The notes beneath the pieces were generated by a model. The model was not told where the DNA came from. It saw only the letters and a list, made by a program, of their open reading frames with translations, and did no database searches. Source: Sthenelais limicola (Eukaryota; Annelida; Polychaeta; Phyllodocida; Sigalionidae). From it: DNA of 64,000 bases. This document shows positions 1,118 through 58,190 of this stretch, piece after piece. Each line of letters begins with the position of its first letter. The first letter of the stretch is position 1. The translations under genes and the position numbers were made by a program. The stretch lies in NCBI GenBank assembly GCA_942159475.1, contig OW804098.1, positions 5,866,383-5,930,382 of the forward strand. Direction: 5' to 3'.

Positions 1118-1743
1118 CCGAAGAAGAGCAAGTTTATTTGTCGGAGGCACACACTATTGCCAATGCTGCTAGGACTGTTTATAAATTAAATGCACGACCT
1201 AAGGGATTTGCAGTAATCATTGACGGCGAAACATACAACCGTGACAATTTCGATAATCTGGGATTACGCGTGAGAATGCCTCCACGATTGAGACCACCGA
1301 TGGGGTGGTGTTCCAGGGCCACATGAGCCCATTCTCAAACATGTACGCATGTCAAATCGTTTTTGATGACATAATAGCCAACTCGGCAGAGCAGCTATAC
1401 CAAACTCGTAAAGCCCTTTTGTCAGGAGCGGACCAATCTCTAACTGACAGAATCAAATCGGTTAAAAACCCCTATGTAGCCAAGAGGCTCGCAAACCAGA
1501 TTCCAGAATCAGTGAACTGGACTGAAGATATTGCGCAGGAAACACTTCTAGATTGCATGCGGCTGAAGTTTAAACAAAACCCAAACCTAGCTACACTTCT
1601 GAAGAATTACACAACCGACGCGACCTTCTATGAGGCCACACTCGATCCCTACTACGGACGCGCCTGGCCTTAGCAAGGACCAAATAAAGGACTACAAAAA
1701 CATCGGTGGTAAATTACTCTCCAAGCTCAGATCTGAACTGTGA
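1118..1743 (+). pseudogene. retroelement ORF1 C-terminal part with NADAR domain, frameshifted
   Basis: Translation starts in a partial domain (…EAHTIANAARTVYKL…GETYNRDNFDN…) that aligns by eye with the region just before the NADAR domain of the ORF1 at 54799-56641. A frame change near 1295 leads into a NADAR domain (YbiA/DUF1768 superfamily): HMSPFSNMY, SAEQLYQTRKAL, then LKFKQNPNL, then FYEATLDPYYGRAW. These correspond to the family's 'LSNF', 'EHxxQxxKA', 'KFxQNP' and 'EA..D..WG' blocks. A second frame change near 1670 gives the last ~24 residues, ending at a stop at 1741-1743. NADAR proteins process ADP-ribose or ADP-ribosylated nucleobases (family knowledge). No coiled coil or start codon of ORF1 is left. 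The SGNH gene follows 32 bases later. Confidence 0.72.
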
Positions 1744-1775
1744 ATTCTCTAAATACCCAGTATTATTTTCTCATC

Positions 1776-2384
1776 ATGCCGCGCTTTGAAATTCTCTTAA
1801 TAGGGGACTCCAGAGTGCGAAACTGGGAAGTGCCTTTGCAAGCGCTTTTGAGAGAACACAAATGTTATGACATAAACCTAACATGCCTCCCACTCCCAGG
1901 CGCCCGGCTCAGGGACATTGCCACTGAAGCTTACAAAAGATTTTGGGTTCGCCAATATGATCTATGTTATGTTCAGGCAGGCATAAATGAGCTAACTGAA
2001 AAGCTAAAGGGAAGAAGGATTTATCCCAGATTCCCCAACCACCAATCAGCTATCTCTCACTTCATTAGTGAACTCTACTCACTAATACGCGTCTTTAATG
2101 TCATCTCTAGAGCCTTGGTCGTAATGGAAATACCAGGAATCTCCCTCGAAGCATACACAAATGGCTGGTTATCTTCTACCGAAGACCAAGACGAAATCCA
2201 TTCTACCATACTTGCAATAAATAACCAAATCAGAAAAATTAACAGAAGAGCGCAAGTCATCGGACCCCATTTGGAAGGCGTCATACACAAGAAGAGAAAG
2301 TCATACACATCCCATCGCTACATCACTAAAACTAAGGATGGCTTGCACTTCACAAAAGAGACAATCGCCAAACTGCTTACATGA
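1776..2384 (+). CDS. SGNH/GDSL-type hydrolase of a retroelement
   Basis: An intact 202-aa frame from the ATG at 1776; an in-frame GTG lies further up at 1740. Block I is LLIGDSR (Ser at residue 12), block III is QAGINEL (Gly69, Asn71) and block V is KDGLHF (Asp188, His191), so the Ser-Gly-Asn-His set that defines SGNH hydrolases is present. Such esterase-like domains are known from ORF1 of CR1/L2-type non-LTR elements and from some tyrosine-recombinase retroelements; here the domain is a separate frame right behind a NADAR domain. There is no signal peptide or transmembrane segment. The downstream sequence has retroelement 3' features and no RT. The substrate is unknown; ester bonds of lipid or carbohydrate are the usual guess. 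A domesticated host gene is possible but not favoured by context. Confidence 0.72.
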   Translation: MPRFEILLIGDSRVRNWEVPLQALLREHKCYDINLTCLPLPGARLRDIATEAYKRFWVRQYDLCYVQAGINELTEKLKGRRIYPRFPNHQSAISHFISELYSLIRVFNVISRALVVMEIPGISLEAYTNGWLSSTEDQDEIHSTILAINNQIRKINRRAQVIGPHLEGVIHKKRKSYTSHRYITKTKDGLHFTKETIAKLLT

Positions 2385-18523: not shown

Positions 18524-20419
18524 TTATGTATAGAGTGTATTTATCCATTCTTTTTGATTAGATTTGAATGCTTCTATATTTCCTATGTTTCTTTGTCTGG
18601 GCGTTAACTCATTCCATGCGATGGCACATTTAACCTGCACAGTTCGTTCACCCAAGTTTGTTCTATATCTAGGCATTTTTAGAGATGGTCCATCAGCCTG
18701 TCTGGTTTCTCTATTTGGTATATTTGTATAGTTTGGGTCAGTTTTCCTTTTGAATGCAAGATGTCTTAAATGAATTGTCCTTCTATTTTGTAGTAGTGGG
18801 ATTTTAGCTGTATTGTGTAGTTGATTAATGTGTGTGTCATAAGGCATATTTAATATCAGGCGGAGTGCTCTGTTTTGTAATTTTTGTAGTTTGTTTAGGT
18901 GCGGTTTGTGTGTGTTGTGTATGATTACATCCCCATAGTCAAAAAATGGTAATATCTTTGTTTTGTATATTTTCTTTGCTGTGTCTGTATCTATGTATTT
19001 TCTTAATTTGTGTAGTTGGTAGATTTTGTGTGATATTGTTTTTATTGAGTGTTGTATTTGTGTTTGGTAGTTTAATTTGTTGTCTATTGTGAAGCCTAGA
19101 TATTTGTATGTGCTTGTGTGCTGTAATGGGTTACCTAGATAATTTATGTTTTTGTTTTTAATATTGGAGATTTTGTCTTTTGATCTGGATAGAAACATGA
19201 TGTTTGATTTGTTAACATTCACTAAGAATAGATTTGTTTTGCACCATTTCTGCAGATTATCGATTGCTGTCTGCATTTCTGAGAAAATTTTATCAACGTT
19301 TTTACCATGCAGGTACAATATGGTGTCATCCACGTACAAAGATAACTTACAGTTTGATACATATGATTTGAGGTCATTAATAAAAACAATAAACATAAGT
19401 GGGCCGAGTATGGAGCCCTGAGGCACTCCAGTCTTTGTAGACAGTTCTTGTGACGTTATGTTATTTACAGTCACTTTCTGTCTTCTTTCTTCTAGGTACG
19501 ATTTACACCAACACAAAAGATTTCCGTTTATACCAATATGTTTCAATTTATCAAGTAGTATTCTATGGTTAACTAAATCAAATGCTTTTCGGAAGTCAAT
19601 AAAGGATATTAATGTATCTAGGTTATTATCAAGCTGCCACGCAATATCATCAGTCACTTTTGTTAGTGCCTCGATTGTAGATTTACCTGCTCTAAAGCCA
19701 AATTGTTCTATATTTAGTATTTTATGCAATTCTAGGTATTCATTAATTCGTTTGTGAACTATTTTTTCAATTATCTTGCTGGGAGTTGGGAGGAGTGATA
19801 TGGGTCTATAGTTATTTATTAGGTTTTTATTTCCTCCTTTGAATAAGGGAATTACATTAGCTATTTTCCATTTCTCAGGAAAGTGATTTGTGCTAAATGA
19901 GAGGTTTATACAGTGGGTAAATTCTTTGTAGAGTATTATTAGGGCTATTTTCAGTATTTTGGTAGGATTGTTCTCTATTGAAGAGGCTTTATTTTGGTTT
20001 AGATCTCTTAATATTTTTAAGACTTCATTTTCATTCGTTCTTATATTACATAATGAATTTTGGGCTGGGGGGGTCGTTGGTTCCCATTTTGGTACCATAT
20101 TCTTTGTTAGATCTGTTGCGATATTGACAAAGTAGTTGTTTATGTAGCCTGGTAAATTCTCATTTTCTATTGCTTGATTTTCTGAGTCTGTTAGATGTAT
20201 TGTCATATTTTTGTTTTTGGTGGGGGATAGGGTGTTTACAACTTCCCAGAATTTTTTCTGGTCTTGTAAGTGCTCATCTAATTCTTGTAGGATAAATTCT
20301 CTTTTCGCATTTTTTAGGGCATAATTTGCTTCTTTTCTTGCGTTTTTTGCTGCACTCCAGTCCTCTTGATTTTTGGATTTGGAGGCTTTCTTTCTGAGGT
20401 TGTTTTTTCTTTCTTTCAT
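18524..20419 (-). CDS. reverse transcriptase ORF2 fragment (CR1/L2/Jockey-like)
   Basis: Uninterrupted 631-aa frame. RT blocks in order: VIPLFKGGNKNLINNYRPIS, FGFRAGKSTIEAL, SFIDFRKAFDLVNH (motif A), GVPQGSILGPL (motif B), SLYVDDTILYL (motif C, both Asp present), then YKYLGFTID and the C-terminal RALRLIL and AWNEL blocks. The upstream endonuclease is missing; the first ~60 residues are the Lys-rich linker that precedes RT. With no internal stop the copy is fairly young, but without EN and ORF1 it cannot be autonomous. Assignment to the CR1/L2/Jockey group rests on these motifs; the exact clade is uncertain. Confidence 0.88.
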   Translation of the reverse strand: MKERKNNLRKKASKSKNQEDWSAAKNARKEANYALKNAKREFILQELDEHLQDQKKFWEVVNTLSPTKNKNMTIHLTDSENQAIENENLPGYINNYFVNIATDLTKNMVPKWEPTTPPAQNSLCNIRTNENEVLKILRDLNQNKASSIENNPTKILKIALIILYKEFTHCINLSFSTNHFPEKWKIANVIPLFKGGNKNLINNYRPISLLPTPSKIIEKIVHKRINEYLELHKILNIEQFGFRAGKSTIEALTKVTDDIAWQLDNNLDTLISFIDFRKAFDLVNHRILLDKLKHIGINGNLLCWCKSYLEERRQKVTVNNITSQELSTKTGVPQGSILGPLMFIVFINDLKSYVSNCKLSLYVDDTILYLHGKNVDKIFSEMQTAIDNLQKWCKTNLFLVNVNKSNIMFLSRSKDKISNIKNKNINYLGNPLQHTSTYKYLGFTIDNKLNYQTQIQHSIKTISHKIYQLHKLRKYIDTDTAKKIYKTKILPFFDYGDVIIHNTHKPHLNKLQKLQNRALRLILNMPYDTHINQLHNTAKIPLLQNRRTIHLRHLAFKRKTDPNYTNIPNRETRQADGPSLKMPRYRTNLGERTVQVKCAIAWNELTPRQRNIGNIEAFKSNQKEWINTLYT

Positions 20420-20427
20420 CTCTCCTG

Positions 20428-20847
20428 GTCAAAAATCACTGCCCCAGCGACCATATGCAGGTTTTTAGGCATTATCATCGACTCTCATACCATGTCTCTT
20501 AGCTTACCCCAGGATAAGGTTGTGAAATTACAAAACAAGATGGATTTCTTTGCGGGCAAACGCAAAGCCACAAAAACGCAATTACAGAAACTCGGGGGTT
20601 TGCTCTCTCACTGTGGCAAGGTGGTGCCAGGGGGAGAGTTTACATAAACGGACTGTTTGATTTGCTAAGAGGCCTGGAGGATGGAAAATCAGTGAGATTA
20701 TTCCCCCTATTTGTAGAGGAGCTTATATGGTGGTCTTCATGTGTTATATCAAAAGTTGGTGTGGGCTTTATGGCACTTCCAGAAAATAATACCATTGACT
20801 ATGCACATTACATTTCTCAAGATCGTTTTGCTTCTAGCCTAGCCTAG
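20428..20847 (+). pseudogene. continuation of DIRS-like RT / RNase H region
   Basis: Picks up in TICRFLGIIID (the 'FLGF.ID' block downstream of motif C), then KRKATKTQLQKLGGLLSHC and, after a stop at ~20645, a frame with LFPLFVEELIWWSS. This is the normal order in DIRS-type pol. It shows that 18043-20429 is an insertion into this gene. Confidence 0.75.
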
Positions 20848-22664: not shown

Positions 22665-22762
22665 CTGTGTTTCAGGAAAATGAGTCATAAGTCGCAAAAA
22701 ATTGATTTTGAGATATTATTATATTTGAAAAGATGAGATGAAGCCGATTCCAATGATACTTG
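22665..22762 (+). repeat. MITE-like fragment that ends the Gypsy copy
   Basis: 'gtgctgtgtttcaggaaaatgagtcataagtcgcaaaaaattga' plus '..atatttgaaaagatgagatgaagccgattccaatgata' is the family of 43247-43665. Gypsy coding similarity stops exactly at its right edge (~22762). Confidence 0.65.
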
Positions 22763-23671
22763 TTTCACTGATTTTGGGGTTGGAAACGATCGCAAAGCGT
22801 CTAGTTTTGCTGGGTCAGGATGTATGCCATCCTTGTCGACAATGAATCCTAAAAAGGGGACTCTGGTGAGCCCAAAGGAACTCTTTTCCTTTTTAAATTT
22901 AATATTTGCCTTGTCAAAAGCTGTGAATACATTTTTGATATCCTGCACGTGAGAATCCCATGTAGGTGATGCGATCACCACATCATCTACGTAATAGAAT
23001 GCGTTTGGGACTGCTCTCAATACATGTTCTATTAGGGAATGAAATGCTTTTGGAGAAGTCTTAAGTCCCATTGGCATGACTTTATACCTATATACTCCTA
23101 GGGGCGTATTAAATGCTGTAATAAATCGATTTTCCTCCCTTAAACCCACCTGATGAAATCCAGCAAATGCATCTAAGCGAGAGAAAAATCGCCCCTGTGT
23201 CTGCCCAACAGCTTCAATTGTGTTGTCAGCACATGGAAAAGGCCTTATTTCGTCTTTTACAGAGCGATTTATTTGCCTATAGTCGATCACAAGACGCCAG
23301 GCTCTTTTACCCTCTGTTGTCATTGGTTTTTGTACCAAAAAACAAGGTGAACTAAATTCCACAGGATCCACACATTTTTCGATTAAATTTTGCTTTACCT
23401 GATCCTTTAGAATTCCAGCCATAACCTTGGTCATGACTGGGTTCATTCGGTATGGCTGTCTCATTGTGGGACTAAAATCTGGTTTTAAGTCAATGCCATG
23501 TTCGTACTCTGTAGTCAACCCTAGTTTTTTATCCTTACCAACAAAAGAATTTTCGTGATCATGCAATAGACTCAGTAGCTCCTTTTTCTGTTCAGGATTC
23601 AAGTCCTCGCCGATCTGAAAATCAACTACCTTATCATTGTTTTCACTCGATTGTGCAACCAATTCATTCAA
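22763..23671 (-). pseudogene. Gypsy-like reverse transcriptase, 3'-truncated
   Basis: Same frame as gag and protease. Motifs: RLVIDYRQINRS, FFSRLDAFAGFHQV (motif A), YKVMPMGLKTSPKAF (motif B), FYYVDDVVIAS (motif C), then FLGFIVDKDGIHPDPAK. This is a Gypsy/Ty3-type RT with all catalytic Asp residues. Text after SVKQ (to 22685) is MITE sequence read as protein. RNase H, integrase and the 3' LTR are missing. An in-frame TAG at 23681-23683 separates it from the upstream segment. Confidence 0.88.
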
Positions 23672-23680
23672 ATTTTCCTC

Positions 23681-23971
23681 CTATAAATAAAACTCATCCT
23701 CCTTAGCCAACGTATAAATACCCAGAATTGTTCCTCTCTCGATCGTTGTGGCTGCTTTAGAGGCATTAAAAATAGTTATAGGAACTTTATTTTCCCCAAA
23801 CGGTTTGACTAAAGCATGCTTAACAAGGAAAGAAACTGGCCTCTGTCGCTGCAAATTCTCAGTCACCCCTATTGAATTTAACACATCTTCATAAGAAGTG
23901 ATTGCCGCGACAGTGGTGTATTCAGTCCCTGGAGCTATCACAAACCTACATGAAGCTCTGATAGGGAACAC
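23681..23971 (-). pseudogene. Gypsy-like spacer between protease and RT
   Basis: Same frame; RFVIAPGTEYTTVAAIT and TIERGTILGIYTLAKED are the short conserved blocks usually found between protease and RT in Gypsy pol ('..I.RGTILG'). Bounded by an in-frame TGA at 24017-24019 and TAG at 23681-23683. Confidence 0.65.
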
Positions 23972-24016
23972 CTGTTGTTTTTGTCCCGATTTGAAGCTAA
24001 TCTTTGCTCTAAACTT

Positions 24017-24559
24017 TCATAAGAAATCAACTCCCAGTATCATGCTTCTGGTTAACGCAGGAAGAACGATAAATCTATGAGTGAATTGTTGGCCTTCTAT
24101 CATGAAATTTAACTCGATTTTCTTATAACAATGATGTGCTCCTCCATCTGCAACAAATATTTTAATATTACAGCGTAAAACCTTCCCATTGGGTATTTTA
24201 CTTCGGATTTTTCTGAAAAATGCAGAACTAACACAAGAAATAGTGGCACCTGTATCAACAAGAACTGGCATATTCAAATCTTTTACCTCGATTTCTGTGC
24301 AACCTTTATCAATTGGAGCAGTGACCGAAACTTTCTCACCTTTATTTTTGGCTTTCCTCAGCTTCAGCACTGCCTGGCAATTGTCGTCGTCCTTGTCTGT
24401 GTTGGTGGAAGAAATAATGTTTTTCTTTGTACCAGCGAACTTGCCTATTCTAATTCTGGATATTCTGTCTTTTTCTGTTACCGATTCACTAGGAGAAACA
24501 CATCCTTGTTCCTTGGAAATGTCCATGGGATTGCTTATTTCGTCAACAATTTCATTCAT
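24017..24559 (-). pseudogene. Gypsy-like aspartic protease
   Basis: MPVLVDTGATISCVS carries the catalytic D-T/S-G motif and RSMILGVDFL the second conserved block of retropepsins. It would cut the Gag-Pol polyprotein in the particle. The frame ends at a TGA right after VDFL. The stretch to the gag end (24560-24628) has further stops in this frame, so either a true frame change or decay occurs there. Confidence 0.85.
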
Positions 24560-24625
24560 GCTGTGTCGGTCGCCCTCCCAGACACAGCCTATTCGTTTAA
24601 AACATCACTCTCTTTAGAGGATGAT

Positions 24626-25807
24626 CTATGGGGGGGTGACATCTCTCCATTTTGCTTCACCTCCCTTTGGCGATTTAGATCTATGCTTTTTGTCCTTGTT
24701 AAAAGACACAGATTTATCCTTGCTATTGCTTCTGAAATTTTTCTTTTTGTCCTTCTTGTAGTATTTTTTCTCATCACCACTTTTCTCCCTGCTGGAGCTT
24801 CTGTTGCTAAAATTGCTGTGGCGACTGGATGACCTCTCTCTGCTACTGTCGTAGTAGTCAGAGCTATCATAACTCTTGTGCTTTGATCTGTATTTCTGAG
24901 GCTTTTCTCCCTTCTTTTCCTGATTTTTCCTAGCCTCTCTATACTTATCAGCTTGAGATCTGTGATACTGCTCTCTCTTACGATCACTATCCTCGCTATA
25001 CTTCTTTGTATAATTCTTTTCTTTCTTCGAATACATCATGTGTATTGCTTCTTCCATAGGCATATGGCTAGGGGCTCTGTCAGAGGCTATCATCCCCTCA
25101 TGTTTAGCTGCTATTTTTGAGGCTTGATCTAAAGTGGTGGGAAATTCAGAAGCCACTCTTCCAGCCAATTCTGGCCTCAGATTTGTGACATAAAATCTGA
25201 TCTGAACATGTAAGGGAACATTTGCCTTGGACAGCAAGGTTAACATATCGTTATCATAATCTATAACCTTCTCGTGCCTGCCCTGCTTCCTATGAGAATA
25301 ATCTCTCAACACCTCAGCCAAAGGAAGCTCGCTGAAATTGGCAATAAAATCGGTTTTAATGCGATTATATGGCAACGTATCGCCATATACACCAACTATT
25401 TGGTTGTAAAAGGTTTTAGCCCTCCCCGACAAATATTGGACCAAAGTGGTTACCATAAGCTGGTTATCTTCGCGAATAGGCACTGTAAATGCCTCAAATT
25501 CGTCGAAAAATTCATTCACAGGTCTCATAGCTGTGGGCTTGTCGAATACTAAGGGGGGCTTCCTGTATTGTTTCGACAATGCTGCTGTCGAAGTGAGGCC
25601 AGTAGCCTCTGCTTGCCTTCTTAGGGACACATCCAGAAAAGCAGTCTGATCTAATCTTTTCTGCTTTATTTCGTCTACCAGGTCATAGAGATGCTGACCA
25701 TAGGGTGGAGGTGGGGGTCTGTACATCCCTTGTTGTACATTTGGTAGGTGGAAATTCTGTTGTTGCCGAATTGGGGTTTGATTCCTAGGCTGATTTTGCC
25801 TAGGCAT
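24626..25807 (-). pseudogene. Gypsy-like Gag, capsid region and basic tail
   Basis: Retrotransposon gag domain: FFDEFEAFTVPIREDNQ, LVQYLSGRAKTFYNQI and FSELPLAEVLRDYSHRKQG (~residues 88-180). The last ~130 residues are Lys/Ser/Arg/Tyr-rich (RKREQYHRSQADKYRE, SSRERSSSRHSN); no CCHC zinc knuckle is seen, so nucleic-acid binding may depend on this basic tail. The N-terminus is continuous in frame with two more open segments upstream. The frame ends at TAG (24626-24628). Confidence 0.8.
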
Positions 25808-25849
25808 TTGTCTGTGGGGAGGGGTATTCCTTCCCCTTCCCTGTCTTTG

Positions 25850-26254
25850 TCATCCTCGTTGGTTCCCCTGATCAATGTTCCTTGGCTGGGGAGCTTGATA
25901 AACATTAATATTGGGATCTGGGACTTGGTTTTGCTGTGGCTGGTTCACAATATTCTGAGGCTGCTGTGGCACTGCATTTTGCGCCTGTTGCTGCACAAAA
26001 TTTTGTCCTTGTTGAACAACATTTTCACCATATTGTTGATATTGTCCTTGAGGTGGAACATACTGGTAGGGGGTATAAAATTGTTCGTGAATACCAGCAT
26101 TTCCATCGTCTTGCATGTTCCTTGGGGAAGGCAAACCTCCCTGTCTATTCGCCATATCCCACCAGTTTTGATATGGATCTTTTCTAAGTGGGATTTGTTG
26201 CTGTATGTGATGGGGGGTTATCACAGGGGGTCTAGGACCATTCACGTTAAACAC
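25850..26254 (-). pseudogene. Gypsy-like Gag, Gln/Pro-rich segment
   Basis: Same frame as the flanking gag pieces: QNWWDMANRQGG, then Gln/Asn-rich YVPPQGQYQQYG and QNIVNQPQQNQVPD. It ends at an in-frame TGA (25850-25852) and is joined upstream through an open stretch to a TAG at 26381-26383. Low-complexity linker of Gag. Confidence 0.6.
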
Positions 26255-26380
26255 TGGGGCCTGTGGGAAGTTCTTCAGTATAGGCCTCTGTGTTTGTTGG
26301 ATAAGTTGATTCAGAGTCGGTTTTGCAGGGGTTTGTAAGGGGGTTTGAAAGTTATCATTTAAACCAGGGGTCTCGAATGG

Positions 26381-27106
26381 CTAATAAGGCCCCTGATTAA
26401 TTTGATTGGCTTGATTAACCTGATTAGCTTGGTTAATCCTCGGAGAAGGAGGTGTTGGTTCTCTAGGTGTTAACAGTCTCTCTCTCTGATTATTTAAGTC
26501 CCTTTCGTCAATCTGGTTTTCCTCTACAGCAGTCCCCTCAATATTATTATCAACGTTTAAACCGACCTGTGGCTGATCTTCCTGCAAAGCCTGTGCTTGT
26601 TGATTCACAACTGGATTAACTGCTTCAACAGCTGGGTCAGGCTCCTGCCCTTCCTCTAGGTTAAGTTCAACTCGTTCTTGATGATCTTGATCGTCTTCAA
26701 CGAGCTGCTCCTCTTCGTCTGACACGTCCTCTATCTGTTGCTTGTGCCCAATATTGTTTCCAGCCAAGTGCTGTACGTTTCTGTTAATAATTTCGTCAAT
26801 TAAGTCCACATTAATATCGTTGTTCACTACCTCCTCCTGCTGATTATCACGAACTGGTGGTGGAGGTAATGGAATTGCTCCTGGGTTTAATCTTGCATTC
26901 ACATTTGGAACATTTTCCATGTCCTGAGGCACCTTGTAAGGGTCTTCAAAGTCCAATTGCCTCGGCTGCTGATTCAAGATTTTGCCTTGATTCTCTCGTC
27001 TTTGTCCTCTCGTGACTATTGCCTGCGGTAACGCTGCTAAACGCTCAACAGATCGTTTAATCTTGTTGAACAAGGCCAACTTAGGCGTATTCGCAGCCTC
27101 TTCCAT
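26381..27106 (-). pseudogene. Gypsy-like Gag, N-terminal acidic region
   Basis: The ATG at 27106 (MEEAANTPKLALFNKIK) is the likely start of the gag-pol frame, ~120 bases after the LTR-like region. A basic start (VTRGQRRENQGK) is followed by a long acidic, Asn/Gln-rich stretch (DVSDEEEQLVEDDQDHQE) and tandem NQANQVNQANQINQ at the end. In-frame TAG at 26381-26383. No known domain apart from its position. Confidence 0.65.
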
Positions 27107-27229
27107 AGCTCAAAAACATGCTTCAAATTGCAAATGAACTCGCTTTTTGTGAGAAAAAAAATCTCTATGTCCAAGATCGAGCAGGTTGTCCGCCCGTGTA
27201 ATGATCTAATGGAAGAAGACTAACAAACG

Positions 27230-35746: not shown

Positions 35747-38674
35747 TTACTCTTTATTCTTGTATATTATTTCGATTTGTTTTCTGAATTCTTTTTTAGA
35801 GTCAACTGACTGAACATTTGTTTCTAGTGAGTTCCAGGCTTGTTTTGCTCTATATGAAAAGCAGTTTTGATATAGAGTTGATTTTGGGTGATTTAGAATG
35901 AATTTTTTTCTGTTTTTGGCATGACTTCTAGTGGGTAATTTTCGACAATCTAAATTTGAGATATTTTGGGCTAGGTAATGGGCGCTTTCAAGAGTGTGGA
36001 TCTCCCTTCTCACTTCGTTCGACAATATATTCATATCTTTCATTTGCTGAGTGACATTTGTTCTTTTACTTAGGTTTAGAACAGATCTGATAGCAGAGTT
36101 TAAGAGAGAGTCTATTCTCTTTAGCAGCTGCTTGTTTGTAGAGTAATAAAATATATCTCCCTGATCTATATTGGGGATAATTAACATTTTTACAATATTT
36201 CTTTTTTCTTTTTTGGGTAACATGTACCTAGCATTAGATAACAATTTAACCTTCCACTTTAGCTTATCTATAAGCTTCTTAGTGTGTGACTTGAATGACA
36301 GTTGGTCGTCGATTGTGAGACCTAGGTATGTATATTCACATACTTGAGCCAATGTTTCAGTTCCCAGGGTAAGATTATTATTATTATTTTGGGTATTTTT
36401 GGAATTTCTTTCTTTCTTTTTGAAGGTGACATATTGAGTTTTCGATACGTTCATTGATATTTTATTTATTTTACACCAAGTGTCTATCCAGTCCAGATCT
36501 TGTTGTAGTTTTTCGAATATTTGTGATTCGTTTTTACTGCTATAAAAAAGAACAGTATCATTTGCATAGTGTTGTATTACTGAATTTTGTACCACTTGGT
36601 GTAAATCGTTGATATATATGGAGAATAGGATCGGGCCTAATATGGTTCCTTGAGGTACGCCGAATGAGAGGTAACCCTGGGGAGAGATGAAACCATTGGC
36701 TTTTACACACTGCTCATGATTTGACAAATAATTCTCGAACCATTTATTTTCATTCTCTTGTATTCCTAATTTATGTAATTTTTCTAGTAATTTTTTGTGA
36801 TGTACGGTATCAAAAGCTTTTTTGAAGTCTAAAAATACAGCAGTTGTTAACTTATTATCATTTAAATTATTATAAACTACTTCCAAAAGGTCAATATGGG
36901 CTTGGGAGACGGAATGTTCCTGTCTAAATCCATATTGTTTTTGGTAGTATAGATCGTTTTCCTCTAGGTAGGCTGAAAGTTGATTCTGAATAATCTTTTC
37001 TAATATTTTTGCTGGCATATTAATGCCAGAAATGGGTCGATAATTATTTGTATTACTCTTAGGACCTTTTTTGTGAAGGGGGGTCACTACTGATTTTTTG
37101 AATGCATTTGGTACTACTCCATCTCGCATAGATAGATTCATGATATGACTCAGTTGATTAACCAGTGCCTGTAAGCAAGGTTTAAGAATTTTGCCTGGAA
37201 TGAATTCTAGACCTGAATTTTTATGCGGATCAATTTTTGTGATTATTTTTAATAAATCTTTTGAGGTAACGGGCTTAAATTTAAAAGGTGTATCATAGGT
37301 TTGATTACCCTTTTTGGCTTGAAGTTCATGCATTAACTTGATGCTGTCCTCCGAGGGATCAGGGATTTTCCTTGCAAGAGAGGGTCCGACATCTAAAAAA
37401 TAATCGTTAAATGCATTTGGTACATTTTTTGACTCTATGTTGTTATCATCTGAGTCAGTGAGGCTTATTTTGGTTGATACTTTTTGCTTTTCTGGACATA
37501 CAACACTGTTTATTGTTTTCCATATAGCTCTGGGATTATTTCTATTCATATATATTTCGTGACGAAGTATGGAGGCCTTCTTATTTCTTGTCAAAGTATT
37601 AACTTGGTTTCTAAGTTGTTTTGCTTCTATTAATAAATCTTTGTTTGCTAGCTTCTTTGCTTTTCTAAATTTTCGATCTCGTTCATTAATGAGTGTTGTT
37701 ATCTCAGGGGTGATCCAATCTGGCTTTCTCCTGACTCTATGGAAATTTTTGATTGGGCACATTCTATCTAGGAAATGTGTTATTTTAAATATTAGCATCT
37801 CCCAGCATTTGTTGGGGTCTGCGCATTGATAGAAGGTAGTCCAATCTTGGTCCCTCAAGATTTCATTAAGAATTTTTTGATCTAAATTTTTTGTATTTCT
37901 TGCTTTGAATGTATTTGTTTTGTAAGTGTTCCTATTTTTTTTTAGAGTGATAAAGGTTGGAAAATGATCCGATGTACTATTCTCTATGATTCCAGATGAT
38001 AACACAATTTTTGAGTTTGTATATATGTGATCTAGAAGTGTATTTGAGGACATTGTTCTGGTCGGTTCTATTGTTCTGGTCGGTATATCAATGAATTGAG
38101 TCAGGCTATATTTGTCAAATATAGCTTGTAATTCCTGAACTCTACTTCCATTTTTCTGGTTCAATAGATCAATATTTAGATCACCTGTTACAATAATATC
38201 AAGTGAATTGTTAAGTTTAGACAATATGTCATCGATTTGTTTTAAAAAGGCATTTACCTGGCCTCCTGGGGGCCTATAGATATTTACCACAATATACGAT
38301 TTTGACTTATTTTTCTTCACTATGACAATCTGAGCTTCAAGATCTGAATTGGTGGTTGATAACAGATTATAGGTATCAGAGTCAACTTCAAACTCATTGT
38401 TAACATAAATACAGAGGCCACCTCCCCTTTTCTTACCTGGTCGATCTTGTCTGACCAATTCGTAGTTGTCTAGGCGGAACATGTTCGTATGCGTTTTTTC
38501 CTGTAACCAGGTTTCTGTGAGACAGACAATATTAAGTTTGTTCATTGACAGTTCGATACAATGTTGTAAATTACTAAAATTCTTTTGTAGGCTTCTAATA
38601 TTCCAGCCAACAAGGCTAAAACCCTTGCTGGTTGCAAAATTAGAGAAATTATCGAGTCTAACTCCTGATGACAT
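35747..38674 (-). CDS. ORF2: AP endonuclease + reverse transcriptase (CR1/Jockey-like)
   Basis: 975-aa frame without stops. The endonuclease/exonuclease/phosphatase fold comes first: LVGWNIRSLQ, LTETWL, VVNIYRPPGG, VTGDLNIDLL, NTLLDHIYTNS and STSDHFPTFI (residues ~20-245), with the expected Asn, Glu, Asp and His positions. RT follows: VVTPLHKKGP, NNYRPISG, AVFLDFKKAFDTVHH (motif A), GVPQGTILGPI (motif B), QHYANDTVLFY (motif C), YTYLGLTID. Motif C reads YAND instead of YADD, so a metal-binding Asp is Asn (codon aat), and this copy should be inactive in reverse transcription. It would nick target DNA and prime cDNA synthesis in an active copy. Antisense frames here are shadows. Confidence 0.93.
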   Translation of the reverse strand: MSSGVRLDNFSNFATSKGFSLVGWNIRSLQKNFSNLQHCIELSMNKLNIVCLTETWLQEKTHTNMFRLDNYELVRQDRPGKKRGGGLCIYVNNEFEVDSDTYNLLSTTNSDLEAQIVIVKKNKSKSYIVVNIYRPPGGQVNAFLKQIDDILSKLNNSLDIIVTGDLNIDLLNQKNGSRVQELQAIFDKYSLTQFIDIPTRTIEPTRTMSSNTLLDHIYTNSKIVLSSGIIENSTSDHFPTFITLKKNRNTYKTNTFKARNTKNLDQKILNEILRDQDWTTFYQCADPNKCWEMLIFKITHFLDRMCPIKNFHRVRRKPDWITPEITTLINERDRKFRKAKKLANKDLLIEAKQLRNQVNTLTRNKKASILRHEIYMNRNNPRAIWKTINSVVCPEKQKVSTKISLTDSDDNNIESKNVPNAFNDYFLDVGPSLARKIPDPSEDSIKLMHELQAKKGNQTYDTPFKFKPVTSKDLLKIITKIDPHKNSGLEFIPGKILKPCLQALVNQLSHIMNLSMRDGVVPNAFKKSVVTPLHKKGPKSNTNNYRPISGINMPAKILEKIIQNQLSAYLEENDLYYQKQYGFRQEHSVSQAHIDLLEVVYNNLNDNKLTTAVFLDFKKAFDTVHHKKLLEKLHKLGIQENENKWFENYLSNHEQCVKANGFISPQGYLSFGVPQGTILGPILFSIYINDLHQVVQNSVIQHYANDTVLFYSSKNESQIFEKLQQDLDWIDTWCKINKISMNVSKTQYVTFKKKERNSKNTQNNNNNLTLGTETLAQVCEYTYLGLTIDDQLSFKSHTKKLIDKLKWKVKLLSNARYMLPKKEKRNIVKMLIIPNIDQGDIFYYSTNKQLLKRIDSLLNSAIRSVLNLSKRTNVTQQMKDMNILSNEVRREIHTLESAHYLAQNISNLDCRKLPTRSHAKNRKKFILNHPKSTLYQNCFSYRAKQAWNSLETNVQSVDSKKEFRKQIEIIYKNKE

Positions 38675-38977: not shown

Positions 38978-39438
38978 TCATGCTGCTTCTTGTTTTTGTG
39001 GCGTTAGCTCGTTTTTGACATCTCTGACGAGGTTTCCTTGGACGTTCTGTCCTTTCAATCTTTGTGACGATAGCTTGTTTGGTTCCGTAAGCAAGTTTGG
39101 GAAGCGGAAGCCCGCACCCCACTTCCTGTTTAGGGTCATTTCGAAGAAATGTTCATATGGTTCAGCGATAATTTTTGCTTTCAAATTCAGATTTTGATCA
39201 AACTTGTTGTATATTAGATCGTGCAATAGTTGTGTTTCATTTTCTTGGAATTTTTTATCCGGTTCGATATCGCCTCCGAGGTACTTGGCTTTGTACGGTG
39301 ACGCCGTTCTCCGAATCTGCTCGGCAGTTCCGGTTTCTCCCGCGCTGTGGGCTTTTAGACATTGATATGCCTGTTCTACCGATTGGTACCTTACCTTGTC
39401 ATAGTCAAATGGTGCTCTATGATTTATTTTGAAAATTT
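38978..39438 (-). pseudogene. ORF1 C-terminal NADAR domain, 5'-truncated
   Basis: The open frame continues up to a stop at ~39437-39435 on the minus strand. Blocks: VRYQSVEQAYQCLKAH, SPYKAKYLGG, LIYNKFDQNLNL, HFFEMTLNRKWGAGFRFP, then RLKGQNVQGNL and a stop at 38978. These correspond to the EHxxQxxKA, KFxQNxxL and E..xDxxWGxG motifs of NADAR. The first block (LSNF) is lost at the truncation. The text is clearly alike to 56180-56641. No ATG; it is the end of a longer ORF1. ORF2 starts 303 bases downstream. Confidence 0.82.
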
Positions 39439-40201: not shown

Positions 40202-40279
40202 TGCCGTGAACCTTTCCCCTGAGCTCTTCCCCCAATAGTTGCTTCACAAACTGGCGACGTTATGAGATGACATCTCTAC

Positions 40280-41957
40280 ATGTATGGGTCCCAATTAGAA
40301 ATGTGTACACTTGGACTTTTTAACGTCTTGACTAGCTGGCGAAATGGCATAATTATAAAACATTTTTCCACAAACAGAAGTGTATTTGAATTTACAGAAC
40401 CAATTCTTAAAGGGATAGATAGCGGAAAAGTTTCGGTCGCCACCTATAACGACGTGGCCAAAGCGTTTAATTCTGTTGACCATATGATTTTGATGAGAAA
40501 ACTGGAATGCTATAAGATCAACCCATGTATTATAAAAATTATCAAAGAGTACCTAACTGATAGGATCCAATGCACTAAGCTCGGGAAACATTTATCCAAT
40601 GAAGTCTTAATTAATAAAGGGGTACCCCAAGGCAGCTTGGTGGGCCCCTTAATCTTTTTGATTTATGTAAGTGATCTTCCCCGATGTATTAGAGATGTAA
40701 GAGAAAATGTTGAAGTTTCGGTTGATATAAACATCACCATCTATGCTGATGATACCACTGTGACGGTAACCGGCACTAACATAAATGATTGTATTGCTGT
40801 CTCGCAACGCTCTACTAATTCCATCAGTAAGTGGATGCGTGATAACAAACTTATTTTAAATGCTGACAAATGTCAATTGCAATTACTTGGATCGAAACGC
40901 AAATTGAATCGCATTAACCTTGATAACATTGGTAAAAATTATGTCGATGGCAAAGCTATTAAGCTAGCTAAGAATGTAAGATACTTGGGATACGTTATAG
41001 ATCCCTTCTTATGTTTCGATTGTCACTTTATCAAAATGAGATTCACTCTTCAGGCAAAAGTAAATATATTAACGAGGTTAAGATCATGCCTTGACAAGAA
41101 GATTACATCACTAATTGTGAAAAGCCATGTCTATTCGCTAGCCGAATATGGGAACATTTTCTTTAATATGGCAACAGCTAGTAATGTAAAAAAAGTACAG
41201 AGTGTCCTGAATAGGGCGGTTCGTTTAGTATATTGGAATGAAGAGAGGAGTTTGGAAGATATGTGTGAAGACCTCAATGTCATCAGTTTCAAAAGAAGGG
41301 GGGAGATTGCAATTATGAACCTGATGTATAATTTCAAGGAAGATCAATCTAAAATTGTAGTAATGCCACGTGCCACACGACAGGCGGAAGGAATTAACTT
41401 AATCCAAACGAATCCGAGGTCCGAGAAATTCCTGAGGTCTCCACACACAAAGGGGCCAAGTGAATGGAACAAGCTTACACCTCGCTTGAAAATATTACCG
41501 TGGCCCAAACTAAAACAGCATTTGAAAAATGTGAGATAAATTGTAAAAACCGGGATGGAAGAGTTGAGTCTAGTAAAATTATACTGGACGGATAGTAAAA
41601 TTATGAGCTTAGAATGGCTGTATAACAGTCAAAAATCGGTGTAACAAATGAGTTTTTTGTTTTTATATTTGCGAAAACAAATCATGTTTTCTTCTGTTTT
41701 TATTTTCTTCGTTCTCGAGGCTAGAAATACAAAAAAATGTAGTAGTGATCTGTATAGGTAATGATGATTGAGAGAGTAATATTGGTGAAATGTCACTTAA
41801 TACCAGACGTTTTGAAGATATAATAGATATGTACTTAATGGATTAAACGGATAATGTTTTTTGTATTGATTATTAAATATCGTTTGTACTTGGAGATTAG
41901 ACGTATCACTGTTGTGAATATCTGCCAATAAAATTGTTTAAAAAAAAAAAAAAAAAA
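40280..41957 (+). mobile_element. 5'-truncated non-LTR retrotransposon with poly(A) tail
   Basis: Begins inside RT and ends with CCAATAAAATTGTTT and an A17-18 tract (41940-41957). A simple poly(A) tail, unlike the (CAATT)n tail of the 35-39 kb element, marks it as a different family. Genomic sequence resumes at 'ttaattatgcaac'. Confidence 0.85.
40370..41539 (+). pseudogene. reverse transcriptase fragment of ORF2
   Basis: One open frame, ending at 41539; recognisable RT starts at about 40370. Blocks: STNRSVFEFTEPI, VATYNDVAKAFNSVDHMILM (motif A), GVPQGSLVGPLIF (motif B), ITIYADDTTVTV (motif C intact), VRYLGYVIDPFL, then LNRAVRLVY and the C-terminal GPSEWNKLTP. The endonuclease and RT fingers are missing, so it is 5'-truncated. 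The Asn in AFN replaces the more usual Asp of AFD. Confidence 0.85.
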
Positions 41958-54798: not shown

Positions 54799-56641
54799 AT
54801 GGATTATCCCACCTCCTCGCCCATGCCCGGCCATGTTGCTTCACTAGCCGACAATAGACCACCGCTATCACCGATCCGCACAAGTAGCCGTTCGTCAAGT
54901 GAAACCTCCATATACCAATCTGCATTAGAGGACTTACAGGAAGAAAATATAAGTAAAAGCAACATGACTGACCATCCAGGACATTACCAACAACCTCATC
55001 ATCCATTTGGTCAGCCAATGCAGATGTTCCCACATTATCCACCGATGTATGGTCACTATAATCCTATGGCCATGCCTTACCATCCTTCACAGATGCCAAC
55101 CTACAACCAACCTCAAGTGAGTCAGACTAGACAGTCAAACCAATCCAATGATGATTCCTTGGTCAAAAGCATGAAGGATCAGATGGAAAAACAAAATGAA
55201 ACTCTAACAAAACAAAATGATCTTATTGCAAAAATGACAAATAGTCTAGATGCACATACAAAAGCCATAAATAAATCTCTAGATCATCTAAAAGCAGATA
55301 ATGCTGATATGAGATCTGAATTAACATCTCACCGAAACCAGGTAGAAAAAGAATTATCATCTCTATCCACCAAAATTGGCAATCTAGACGAAAACCAAAA
55401 TGCTTTTCTTGAGGTATTAAGGCCAGAAATAGACATTAATGTCCACAAATATCTCAGGAGTACAACCAGAGATATTGAAGACAAACAACGAGAAATTTCT
55501 GCATCTATGGATTCTCTACGTGAGAGTCTAAAAAATGTCAAAGGCACAGATAACGTCAAACAAAACTCTCTGACCAATGACCAGCAGACCAATGACCAGC
55601 AGAAAATTCCTCAGAAAATTCCTCAGAAATTATCAAATCGAAAGGATACAAAAACTGAAAAAAAACCTGAAAAAAAGAAACAGGATTATAATAATAGAAT
55701 CATTGTGCTAGAAGATTTCGAAGAATATCAAGATGAGAACATAACTCACGAAATACTATCCCTTCTGCAAGTCATCAGGCCTCTTACCAAGAAGGAAGAC
55801 ATTGAAGAGGTATACAGAATGGGATTTGATGAAAACAGTAATAACAGACCAATATTCATCAAGGTAAAAAGTCCTGAAATCAGGAAAACACTTGTTGAAA
55901 ATATGTTAACTCTAAATAACTCTGCAAGAGACTACCAGTATTTTAGGATTAACAACAAAGGGTTACAGATTTTTCAACATCAAAAATCAATGCTTATGAA
56001 CTGCCTGGCATTGCTCAGAAAAAATGGACATATAGCATCGATTTGCTACAACCACATTAGGATGGGAGATAAGTCCTATACGGTTGATGACCTGTACGAT
56101 CTGCCAGCAATGTGCACACCAGTGGAAGCTTCTAGGATCCCCATTGATCAAGGCAAGGGCTTAGGCTACTACGGTGAACATTCATATCTTTCAAACTTCT
56201 TTATTACACCTGTGGAATATGATAGTGTGGAATACAGTAGTGTCGAACATGCATTTCAAACGTTGAAAGCTCTTAGCGCGCGAAATGCCGAAGCCGCTTG
56301 TTGGATTCAGGCTACAAAAATCTGCTTACGAGGCAAAACTCATCGCGAAAGAACAAGAATTGGAACCGACCAAAGATTTCTTGGAAAATGAAGAAAAGCT
56401 ACTAGAAGAATTAATTAACATCAAATTCCAAACAAATAAAGATCTGGCGCAACAACTATCAGAAGAAAAACAGGATAATTTCTTCGAGGTAACCATGAAC
56501 CGGAAGTGGGGAGTCGGCATTCGATTCCCGGACTTGCTAACACAACAACATGCTCTAACTTCGAAGCGATTTTCTGGCCAAAATAAACAAGGAGATATGA
56601 TCACAAGAATCAAAAAGGAACTCATGAAGAAACAGGGTTAG
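54799..56641 (+). pseudogene. retrotransposon ORF1: coiled coil, RNA-binding region, NADAR domain; one frameshift
   Basis: The ATG at 54799 gives MDYPTSSPMPG. Order of parts (numbering from this Met): Pro/His/Met-rich head (FPHYPPMYGHYNPMAMPYHP, ~75-95); long coiled coil with KDQMEKQNETLTKQNDLIAK and ELSSLSTKIGNLDENQN (~115-250); basic linker (TEKKPEKKK); RRM/C-terminal-domain-like region (RIIVLEDFEEYQDENI, VYRMGFD, NRPIFIKVK, ~295-420), as in L1-type ORF1; then NADAR, starting GYYGEHSYLSNFF (~448), VEHAFQTLKAL, and continuing in the +2-shifted frame with LINIKFQTNKDL and NFFEVTMNRKWGVGIRFP. The frame change lies in an A5 run near 56316-56320. ORF1p would coat the element RNA; NADAR could remove ADP-ribose from nucleic acid (inference). 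Confidence 0.85.
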
Positions 56642-56919: not shown

Positions 56920-57365
56920 ATGTCGAATACAAAAACATTGCCATCATTCAAGCCCATGGCAGATATGAAAGGCTTAGTCATTGTCAATTGGAACATAAGA
57001 AGTGTACCAAAAATTTTTAACAATATTCAGCAATCTCTAGAGATTACTCAAAACAATATAGATGTTATTTGTCTTACCGAATCATGGCTAAACAATAATA
57101 ATAACTCTAATACCTTTGCCATCAACAACTATACGTTGGTTAGACATGACAGAAAGTTGAAAAAGAAAGGGGGTGGACTATGTACCTATGTCAATAAGAA
57201 ATACAACCTTGATAGTGACATGTATTCTCATCTTGCTGTAAGTAATAAAGATATTGAACTTATGGCTATTGTATTGAATATCAAATGTACTACCCCGCAT
57301 GTTATTGTGTCTGTCTACAGACCCCCTGGAGGAACAATTGAACCATTTCTGGAACAACTAGAGGG
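56920..57365 (+). pseudogene. ORF2 N-terminus: endonuclease domain, truncated
   Basis: From ATG 56920 (an in-frame start also exists at 56803): VIVNWNIRSV, VICLTESWL, GGGLCTYVN, VIVSVYRPPGG, then breaks after EPFLEQL. These are the first blocks of the AP-like endonuclease, closely similar to residues 1-150 of the 35747-38674 protein. The remainder, with the GDxN, DHI and SDH blocks and all of RT, is missing. Confidence 0.85.
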
Positions 57366-57371
57366 ATGTCT

Positions 57372-58190
57372 GTGAGATAACCTTTTTAGAAGCATTATAT
57401 TTTTCTAGTTGGCAAAAGAATTTGGTAGGTTTCTCTCCATTTATTGCCCATCTTGCTTTAGAGCGAAGAAGGGCACCTTCGGCTTTTTTGAGCTCGAAAT
57501 CTTTTAGTTCTGACAAAATCATTTCTGTCTTCTCTTTCATTTCCGCTAAGGTTTTTTTTAGCATCAAGTATAACCAGTTTTTCATTTAAGACACCTACTC
57601 TACATCTTCTGGCCTTAGCTTTGTTGGTGCTGATTTCAATGGCAAGTTCCCTGGTCTTTCGTTTAAAAAACTCCCATTTCAGTTTATCATTTAAACACAG
57701 TTCACTGACGTTCTCTGGGATATTTTCAACACCACTAAGGAAGGCATCCTCCGAAAGGAGTTGACTATTGAATTTCCAATAACCATATCCCCTCAAAGGA
57801 AGACCTAGGCACAGTTTAATACATATTTCTTTATGGTCCGTTAAGGGCTTGCTATATACCTTATGGCTAACAATTCTTGACACTAAATTACCAGAAGTAA
57901 AAATGTAATCAATTCTCGAGGTCAACTCGGCTCTAAACCAAGTCGTTTGACGTTCATTCCCTGCTGCTTTGTCTCTTGTAGCCACAATGTCGCAGACGTC
58001 CAACGCAGCAATAATATTTGCCAGTATGCGACTTGACTTCAAGGTGGGTTTATTAAGCATGTCTGCGTTATTTAAAGTCTCCAGCTAGCACCAGATTATC
58101 AATGTCAATTTGATTTGCTGTGTTGATCACTGTCTTCAAAAGAGCTTTCTGAACCAGGCGCTTCTTGATTGTTGAACATTCCTAGTTATC
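57372..58190 (-). pseudogene. L1/Tx1-like ORF2 fragment (EN end and EN-RT linker)
   Basis: On the minus strand: DNLVLAGDF (EN GDFN block, ~58085) with a one-base frame change, then TTWFRAELTSRIDYIFTSGN (DYIF block), PLTDHKEICIKL (SDH block), the linker ELCLNDKLKWEFFKRKTREL, and, after another frame change near 57555, ALLRSKARWAINGEKPTKFF - the 'RS+A+W...GEKPT+FF..LE+' signature of L1/Tx1 elements just before RT. Truncated before RT proper. Its left end abuts the endonuclease fragment. Confidence 0.78.

Follow-up and report, generated by a model that had tools for sequence, protein, structure and literature searches.

The closest described relative of the elements treated here is found in the oyster Crassostrea gigas, where the ORF1 proteins (ORF, open reading frame) of Tx1 long interspersed nuclear elements (LINEs) in Repbase carry a NADAR domain; this takes up one sentence in a Genome Biology paper from 2025 (PMC12477816). 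It is the only account of a LINE ORF1 with NADAR found in our search, which covered the open-access literature with preprints outside its scope. We have analysed a stretch of 64,000 nucleotides, in the following called the window, from the annelid Sthenelais limicola (assembly GCA_942159475.1, contig OW804098.1, positions 5,866,383 to 5,930,382 of the forward strand). It holds three copies, A, B and C, of elements with the same combination, an invertebrate LINE whose ORF1 protein carries NADAR, and genome-wide searches were made in the 1.13-Gb genome of the window. We hold it to be an even chance that the LINE-1-type ORF1 with its C-terminal NADAR is, as predicted, an active hydrolase which removes guanine ADP-ribose from the RNA or cDNA of the element. 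The fusion as such is already known from the oyster, and the original prediction, made from the window sequence, was at variance with the literature in not counting NADAR among the ORF1 modules (PMC12477816). New here are the ORF2s, which are not of L1 type, the variants with an SGNH-like ORF, the evidence for selection, the match in structure and the constancy of NADAR in the ORF1 lineage.

The paper on the oyster elements also reports NADAR in the Pol protein of a Gypsy element of Ectocarpus. This is likewise a retroelement that recruited NADAR, but it is a long terminal repeat (LTR) element of a brown alga, the domain is located in Pol and the blastp matches are almost all bacterial (PMC12477816). 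Among animal RNA viruses the polyproteins of nidoviruses, hepe-like viruses and annelid and bivalve picornaviruses contain NADAR, fused as in the LINEs to the RNA-handling machinery of the parasite and proposed to counter host ADP-ribosylation; they differ in being viral polyproteins and not ORF1p, and the likeness is one of description (PMC9503650). The DarT1-NADAR toxin-antitoxin systems share the predicted reaction, removal of guanine-linked ADP-ribose, but no toxin partner was seen in the LINE, and the LINE NADAR has the YbiA-type Glu and not the BC4488-type Asp. With an LTR element, the oyster LINEs, RNA viruses and phages on record, and with further LINE families and a stand-alone ORF at repeated loci added here, NADAR turns out to have been taken up again and again by genomic parasites, which in eukaryotes would thus seem to benefit from taking off ADP-ribose.

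The ORF1 layout read from the window, a coiled coil, an RRM, a CTD (C-terminal domain) and a C-terminal NADAR in a non-LTR element, was found in intact single frames of many families elsewhere in the genome. Of the two outcomes named beforehand as refuting the prediction, no significant NADAR match by HMM or structure and no further genomic copies with the domain in frame with ORF1, neither came about. L144, a relative of copy B with 98.6% identity across 145 amino acids of NADAR, has a 653-amino-acid ORF1 with coiled coil, RRM-CTD and NADAR in a single frame; the ORF1 of L146 is 667 amino acids long, and in both the NADAR is located at the extreme end. PF08719, the Pfam family for NADAR with a cut-off of 35.1 bits, is over its cut-off in all of L144 to L147. 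A genome search with NADAR, in which the best 150 of 5561 first-look candidates were scored, gave 150 of 150 over this cut-off, as expected of a selection of best matches; the open frame has a length of 500 amino acids or more in 110 of these 150 and of 600 or more in 86. The aligned ORF1s, some of them partial, have NADAR in 16 of 16 cases (E <= 0.001; the first with 114.5 bits), and the ORF1 groups share just 18-28% identity with each other.

The constancy of the fusion was analysed by searching the genome with the RRM-CTD region alone, scoring the best 150 of 875 candidates and taking the loci outside the NADAR match list. All 20 loci with a long frame (488-690 amino acids) have NADAR in frame directly downstream, with 168-213 bits. 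Because a choice of long frames favours extra domains, eight loci with a short frame (228-370 amino acids) were added, and all eight have NADAR sequence downstream, mostly interrupted by stops or changes of frame. This gives NADAR sequence directly downstream in 28 of 28 loci, a result which covers the ORF1s sharing RRM-CTD ancestry with the query and not other ORF1 types.

Three proteins, P0001 to P0003, were found with the full ORF1 as a protein query, and P0004 was added from the alignment; a protein search with NADAR alone as query gave 0 matches, perhaps owing to the word prefilter. The predicted model of P0003, which is confident, has a helix at residues 37-127 and then a match to the L1 ORF1p trimer at model residues 83-276. 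It matches both human LINE-1 ORF1p and the crystal structure of an ADP-ribose-bound NADAR, 8bau. By this model the ORF1 has the order coiled coil, RRM and CTD of the L1 type (type II), as seen in P0003, and the LINE domain is predicted to have the YbiA/NADAR fold. The sequence identity between the LINE ORF1 and human LINE-1 ORF1p (2yko, 2ykp, 2ykq) is about 20%, and the human protein is not known to have a NADAR. The NADAR of P. nicotianae (8bau) and YbiA of E. coli (2b3w) have the same fold and the same catalytic Glu/Lys/Glu arrangement as the LINE domain, but were solved as separate proteins, whereas the LINE NADAR is part of an ORF1 fusion. Between the second Glu and the Trp the LINE domain is one residue shorter than 8bau in 37 of 38 aligned rows.

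The catalytic residues of the P. nicotianae NADAR are E43, K50 and E125 (PMC11543638). Of 58 aligned LINE rows 38 were counted for these residues; left out were 9 rows from minus-strand loci within L001-L020 and 11 further L001-L020 rows, which repeat counted families. E stands at both glutamate positions in all 38 rows; the lysine position holds K in 29 rows, R in another 8 and M in the remaining one. The last strand carries Glu, a trait of the YbiA subfamily, and not Asp or His in all 38. P0001, P0003 and P0004 also show a weak similarity, far under its cut-off, to the NCBIfam entry NF053876, 'NADAR family anti-phage protein'.

Selection was analysed as dN/dS, the ratio of nonsynonymous to synonymous changes, by the method of Nei and Gojobori; it should be noted that dS of NADAR was saturated in 6 of 11 pairs (5 of 8 and 1 of 3). 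For NADAR the ratio is 0.039 in the pair L023/L028, 0.056 in L037/L040, 0.028 in L025/L039 and, with dS near saturation, 0.046 in L144/L146. The C-terminal tail of the same ORF1 gives 0.21-0.31 in the three pairs named first, in two of which endonuclease and reverse transcriptase give 0.06-0.08. In close pairs NADAR is thus constrained about as strictly as the polymerase, and the range of 0.028-0.056 in four pairs, with 0.198 in L146/L147, means purifying selection. These data bear also on the suggestion that NADAR is a non-catalytic module which binds ADP-ribose or nucleic acid and aids the localisation of ORF1 or the packaging of RNA. Such a role would agree with its place on a ribonucleoprotein (RNP) protein and with the replacement of the lysine in 9 of the 38 rows, but the glutamates are kept throughout in spite of the low identity between ORF1 groups and dN/dS in close pairs is as low as for the reverse transcriptase, so that we find a purely binding role hardly likely.

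The window copies themselves are damaged. Copy C has on the plus strand a 530-amino-acid open frame (54799-56391) with, in this order, a low-complexity N-terminus, a long helical or coiled-coil region, a part resembling RRM-CTD and then one third of the NADAR, the first. The frame is 37-41% identical to the ORF1s of L144, L146 and L147 and 23% identical to P0003 (residues 226-500). A frameshift splits the NADAR (56158-56638), of which the remainder is in a different frame at 56267-56641, and for this reason each piece stays under the PF08719 cut-off, the first with 14.8 bits (residues 460-506) and the second with 32.5 bits (E 1.3e-7). The blocks of the catalytic motif read VEHAFQTLKA and FFEVTMNRKWG. 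The claim that 54799-56641 is one ORF1 therefore fails for copy C, which has two frames, and is true of its intact relatives. Downstream lies the start of ORF2 (56920-57372, plus strand), an apurinic-type endonuclease that shares 42% identity with the copy B ORF2 (residues 1-151); in copy C it is interrupted soon after.

The NADARs predicted in the two other copies are both over the cut-off. In copy B (38978-39436, minus strand) the domain is in one open frame with 63.8 bits. This copy is 5'-truncated within ORF1, its homology to the intact relative ending near 39416 (742 bp, 99.5%), and is followed by an intact ORF2 of 975 amino acids (35747-38674, minus strand) with endonuclease (Exo_endo_phos) and reverse transcriptase (RVT_1, E 2e-36). 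Full-length ORF2s of this type occur in 12 copies in the genome, that of the window included, with 99-100% identity. A twin with 100% identity lies about 114 kb away (C5:5785559-5788483) and is perhaps a local duplication and not a second insertion. In copy A (1257-1673, plus strand) the NADAR has 43.0 bits and the frame is broken near its end. The state of the three copies, all broken or truncated in ORF1, would be expected if NADAR were a functionless passenger or a chance similarity. A chance match or degenerate passenger was rejected on the intact frames across the genome, the Pfam matches over cut-off, the purifying selection and the match in structure, and we consider it extremely improbable.

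That the NADAR is an active eraser of ADP-ribosyl-guanine is well supported as a prediction, because the catalytic residues are kept, the domain is under purifying selection, the fold matches 8bau and NADARs described in the literature act on ADP-ribose (ADPr) linked to guanine in both DNA and RNA; no other hydrolase family was found to take guanosine-linked ADPr off RNA (PMC11833690). The original prediction is confirmed in what it observed and partly supported in its interpretation, an eraser carried by the element, which on sequence and modelling is probably active. We infer that the coiled coil would trimerise ORF1, which would coat the RNA of the element as L1 ORF1p does, and that NADAR would thereby be positioned on the RNP. 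There it would hydrolyse guanine-ADP-ribose, so that the template would stay readable for translation and reverse transcription; a host ADP-ribosyltransferase would deposit the mark as a defence. A de-ADP-ribosylase tethered to the RNP would imply an unrecognised immunity of invertebrates which ADP-ribosylates guanine in retroelement nucleic acids, an idea we put forward tentatively and with some doubt. Activity of the LINE NADAR on RNA or cDNA, if confirmed, would open a direct way into a question that is difficult to test, namely whether animals turn ADP-ribosylation of nucleic acids against mobile elements and which enzyme is the writer.

A number of observations weigh against an eraser of guanine marks on element RNA. 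No guanine writer was found: the genome gave 0 matches to DarT, for which the control matched in 1 of 14 genomes, and 0 matches to a Scabin-like writer, for which no control matched, so that absence is not established. The protein CARP-1 originates from shellfish. It is named together with pierisin of the cabbage butterfly (PMC11543638), and pierisin, a point on the other side, is an example of a guanine ADP-ribosyltransferase which an invertebrate is able to encode (PMC11833690). The mark set on RNA bases by human PARP10 is U-ADPr, and this is left in place by bacterial NADARs (PMC13036486). Outside the 38 rows, the individual copy L145 carries K in place of the second glutamate, the lysine of P0004 is lost (M), and the diverged pair L146/L147 has the higher dN/dS given above. 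Some of the mutant data from other NADARs point the same way: in the E. coli C7 NADAR the K95R mutant was still a hydrolase in vitro and failed to rescue cells from DarT1, so that the LINE rows with R may be weaker enzymes, and E88A, equivalent to E43, had a minor effect only in vitro (PMC11543638).

The two remaining observations of this kind lead to another substrate. Of five proteins scanned, three score over the cut-off of TIGR02464, the riboflavin intermediate N-glycosidase family. For phage NADARs a review makes the case that small derivatives of ADP-ribose are preferred and proposes low-molecular-weight ADPr signals as their targets (PMC9503650). The LINE NADAR might then act on small molecules from a host response, such as ADP-ribose derivatives, NAD-derived signals or riboflavin-type N-glycosides. 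The sampled NADARs are, however, fused to an RNA-binding module, which a scavenger of soluble signals does not need, and for the NADARs of eukaryotic RNA viruses the review gives preference to macromolecular targets (PMC9503650); we regard small-molecule targets as rather unlikely. The genome also has 23 exon-level matches to PARP catalytic domains (no control matched), and in L1, proteins of the ORF1p type are companions of the integration complex. Both would suit a NADAR which strips ADP-ribose from proteins or from the ends of DNA at the target site, the nick of target-primed reverse transcription being what activates PARPs there. In published tests the substrate of NADARs is ADPr on guanine bases and not ADPr at phosphate ends (PMC11833690), and the sections of the NADAR literature drawn on name no protein target; we consider action at the target site improbable.

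The elements are non-LTR elements (LINEs), having downstream of ORF1 an ORF2 with an APE (apurinic-type) endonuclease and a reverse transcriptase. RVT_1 is found in 14 of 14 aligned ORF2s, two of which are reverse transcriptase fragments from the window with no ORF1 seen, and Exo_endo_phos in 10 of 14. The 3' ends are poly(A) or short repeats. No clear target-site duplication was found in the 6 copies examined, the longest shared word being 8 bp. Near-identical copies (98.4-99.4% over 4.8-7.2 kb) indicate recent spread.

An ORF2 of L1 type was considered and rejected, since both the reverse transcriptase motif and the length differ from human L1, the sole L1 compared. The motif is GVPQG[ST] in 13 of 14 ORF2s and GVAQGS in one, and the ORF2s of NADAR-bearing elements are 905-1081 amino acids from stop to stop (n=12), 10 of the 12 with WNxLP near the end; human L1 ORF2p has the RQGCPLSP motif (GTRQGCPLSP) and 1275 amino acids. 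GVPQG[ST] and WNxLP are marks of the CR1/Jockey-type group, to which the ORF2s would belong by these motifs. The oyster elements are labelled Tx1, an L1-type group, while the LINEs described here carry a GVPQGS-LGP-type reverse transcriptase; the two may differ in clade, and in that case NADAR ORF1s would exist in two LINE groups.

In the NADAR tree the 18 LINE rows are not all grouped (3 label changes). A single LINE clade is not rejected by the approximately unbiased test (p-AU 0.20 with P0004, 0.33 without), and thus single and multiple origin are both compatible with the tree. The trees of NADAR and reverse transcriptase agree on two main groups, L023/L028/L030/L033 and L029/L037/L039/L040, which is consistent with co-inheritance of the two domains. 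Inside the groups they differ, as the reverse transcriptase joins L030 with L033 and L029 with L039 and NADAR does not, and the deep branches are unresolved. The ORF1-NADAR of P0004 groups with 8bau and viral NADARs on a long branch and is possibly a second, independent fusion.

Among twenty 10-kb loci the intact examples have one of two layouts. In the first, ORF1-NADAR is followed by ORF2 (among others L023, L028, L030 and L033); in the second, an SGNH-like ORF, about 215 amino acids long, stands between the two (among others L037, L039 and L040). In copy A a separate SGNH-hydrolase-like ORF of 215 amino acids (1737-2384, plus strand) lies 3' of NADAR, with Lipase_GDSL at E 0.029, below cut-off; it aligns with the mid-ORFs of other elements and has the DSR and DGxH motifs in common with them. 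SGNH-like mid-ORFs were seen there and in L024, L026, L029, L032, L037, L039 and L040. The assignment is weak, as it is based on motifs and a Pfam E of 0.0086, under the cut-off, in 1 of 8. In addition to NADAR, some elements may therefore carry a second extra hydrolase, the SGNH-like protein.

Stand-alone NADAR ORFs of 162 amino acids lie in at least three places on contig C1 (L121, L122 and L123; 3 of the 150 best matches, different in kind from the ORF1 fusions), beside differing long ORFs. The neighbour of L121 has no Pfam match and carries a motif which we take to be that of the nuclease region adjoining protein-primed DNA polymerases of Maverick-like elements. These ORFs may represent a second class of mobile element with NADAR in this genome. 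The window contains further LINE reverse transcriptase fragments at 18524-20428 and 40271-41539, with which no NADAR ORF1 was seen, and on the minus strand at 22685-27109 gag-pol-like open frames of what is apparently a Gypsy-type element.
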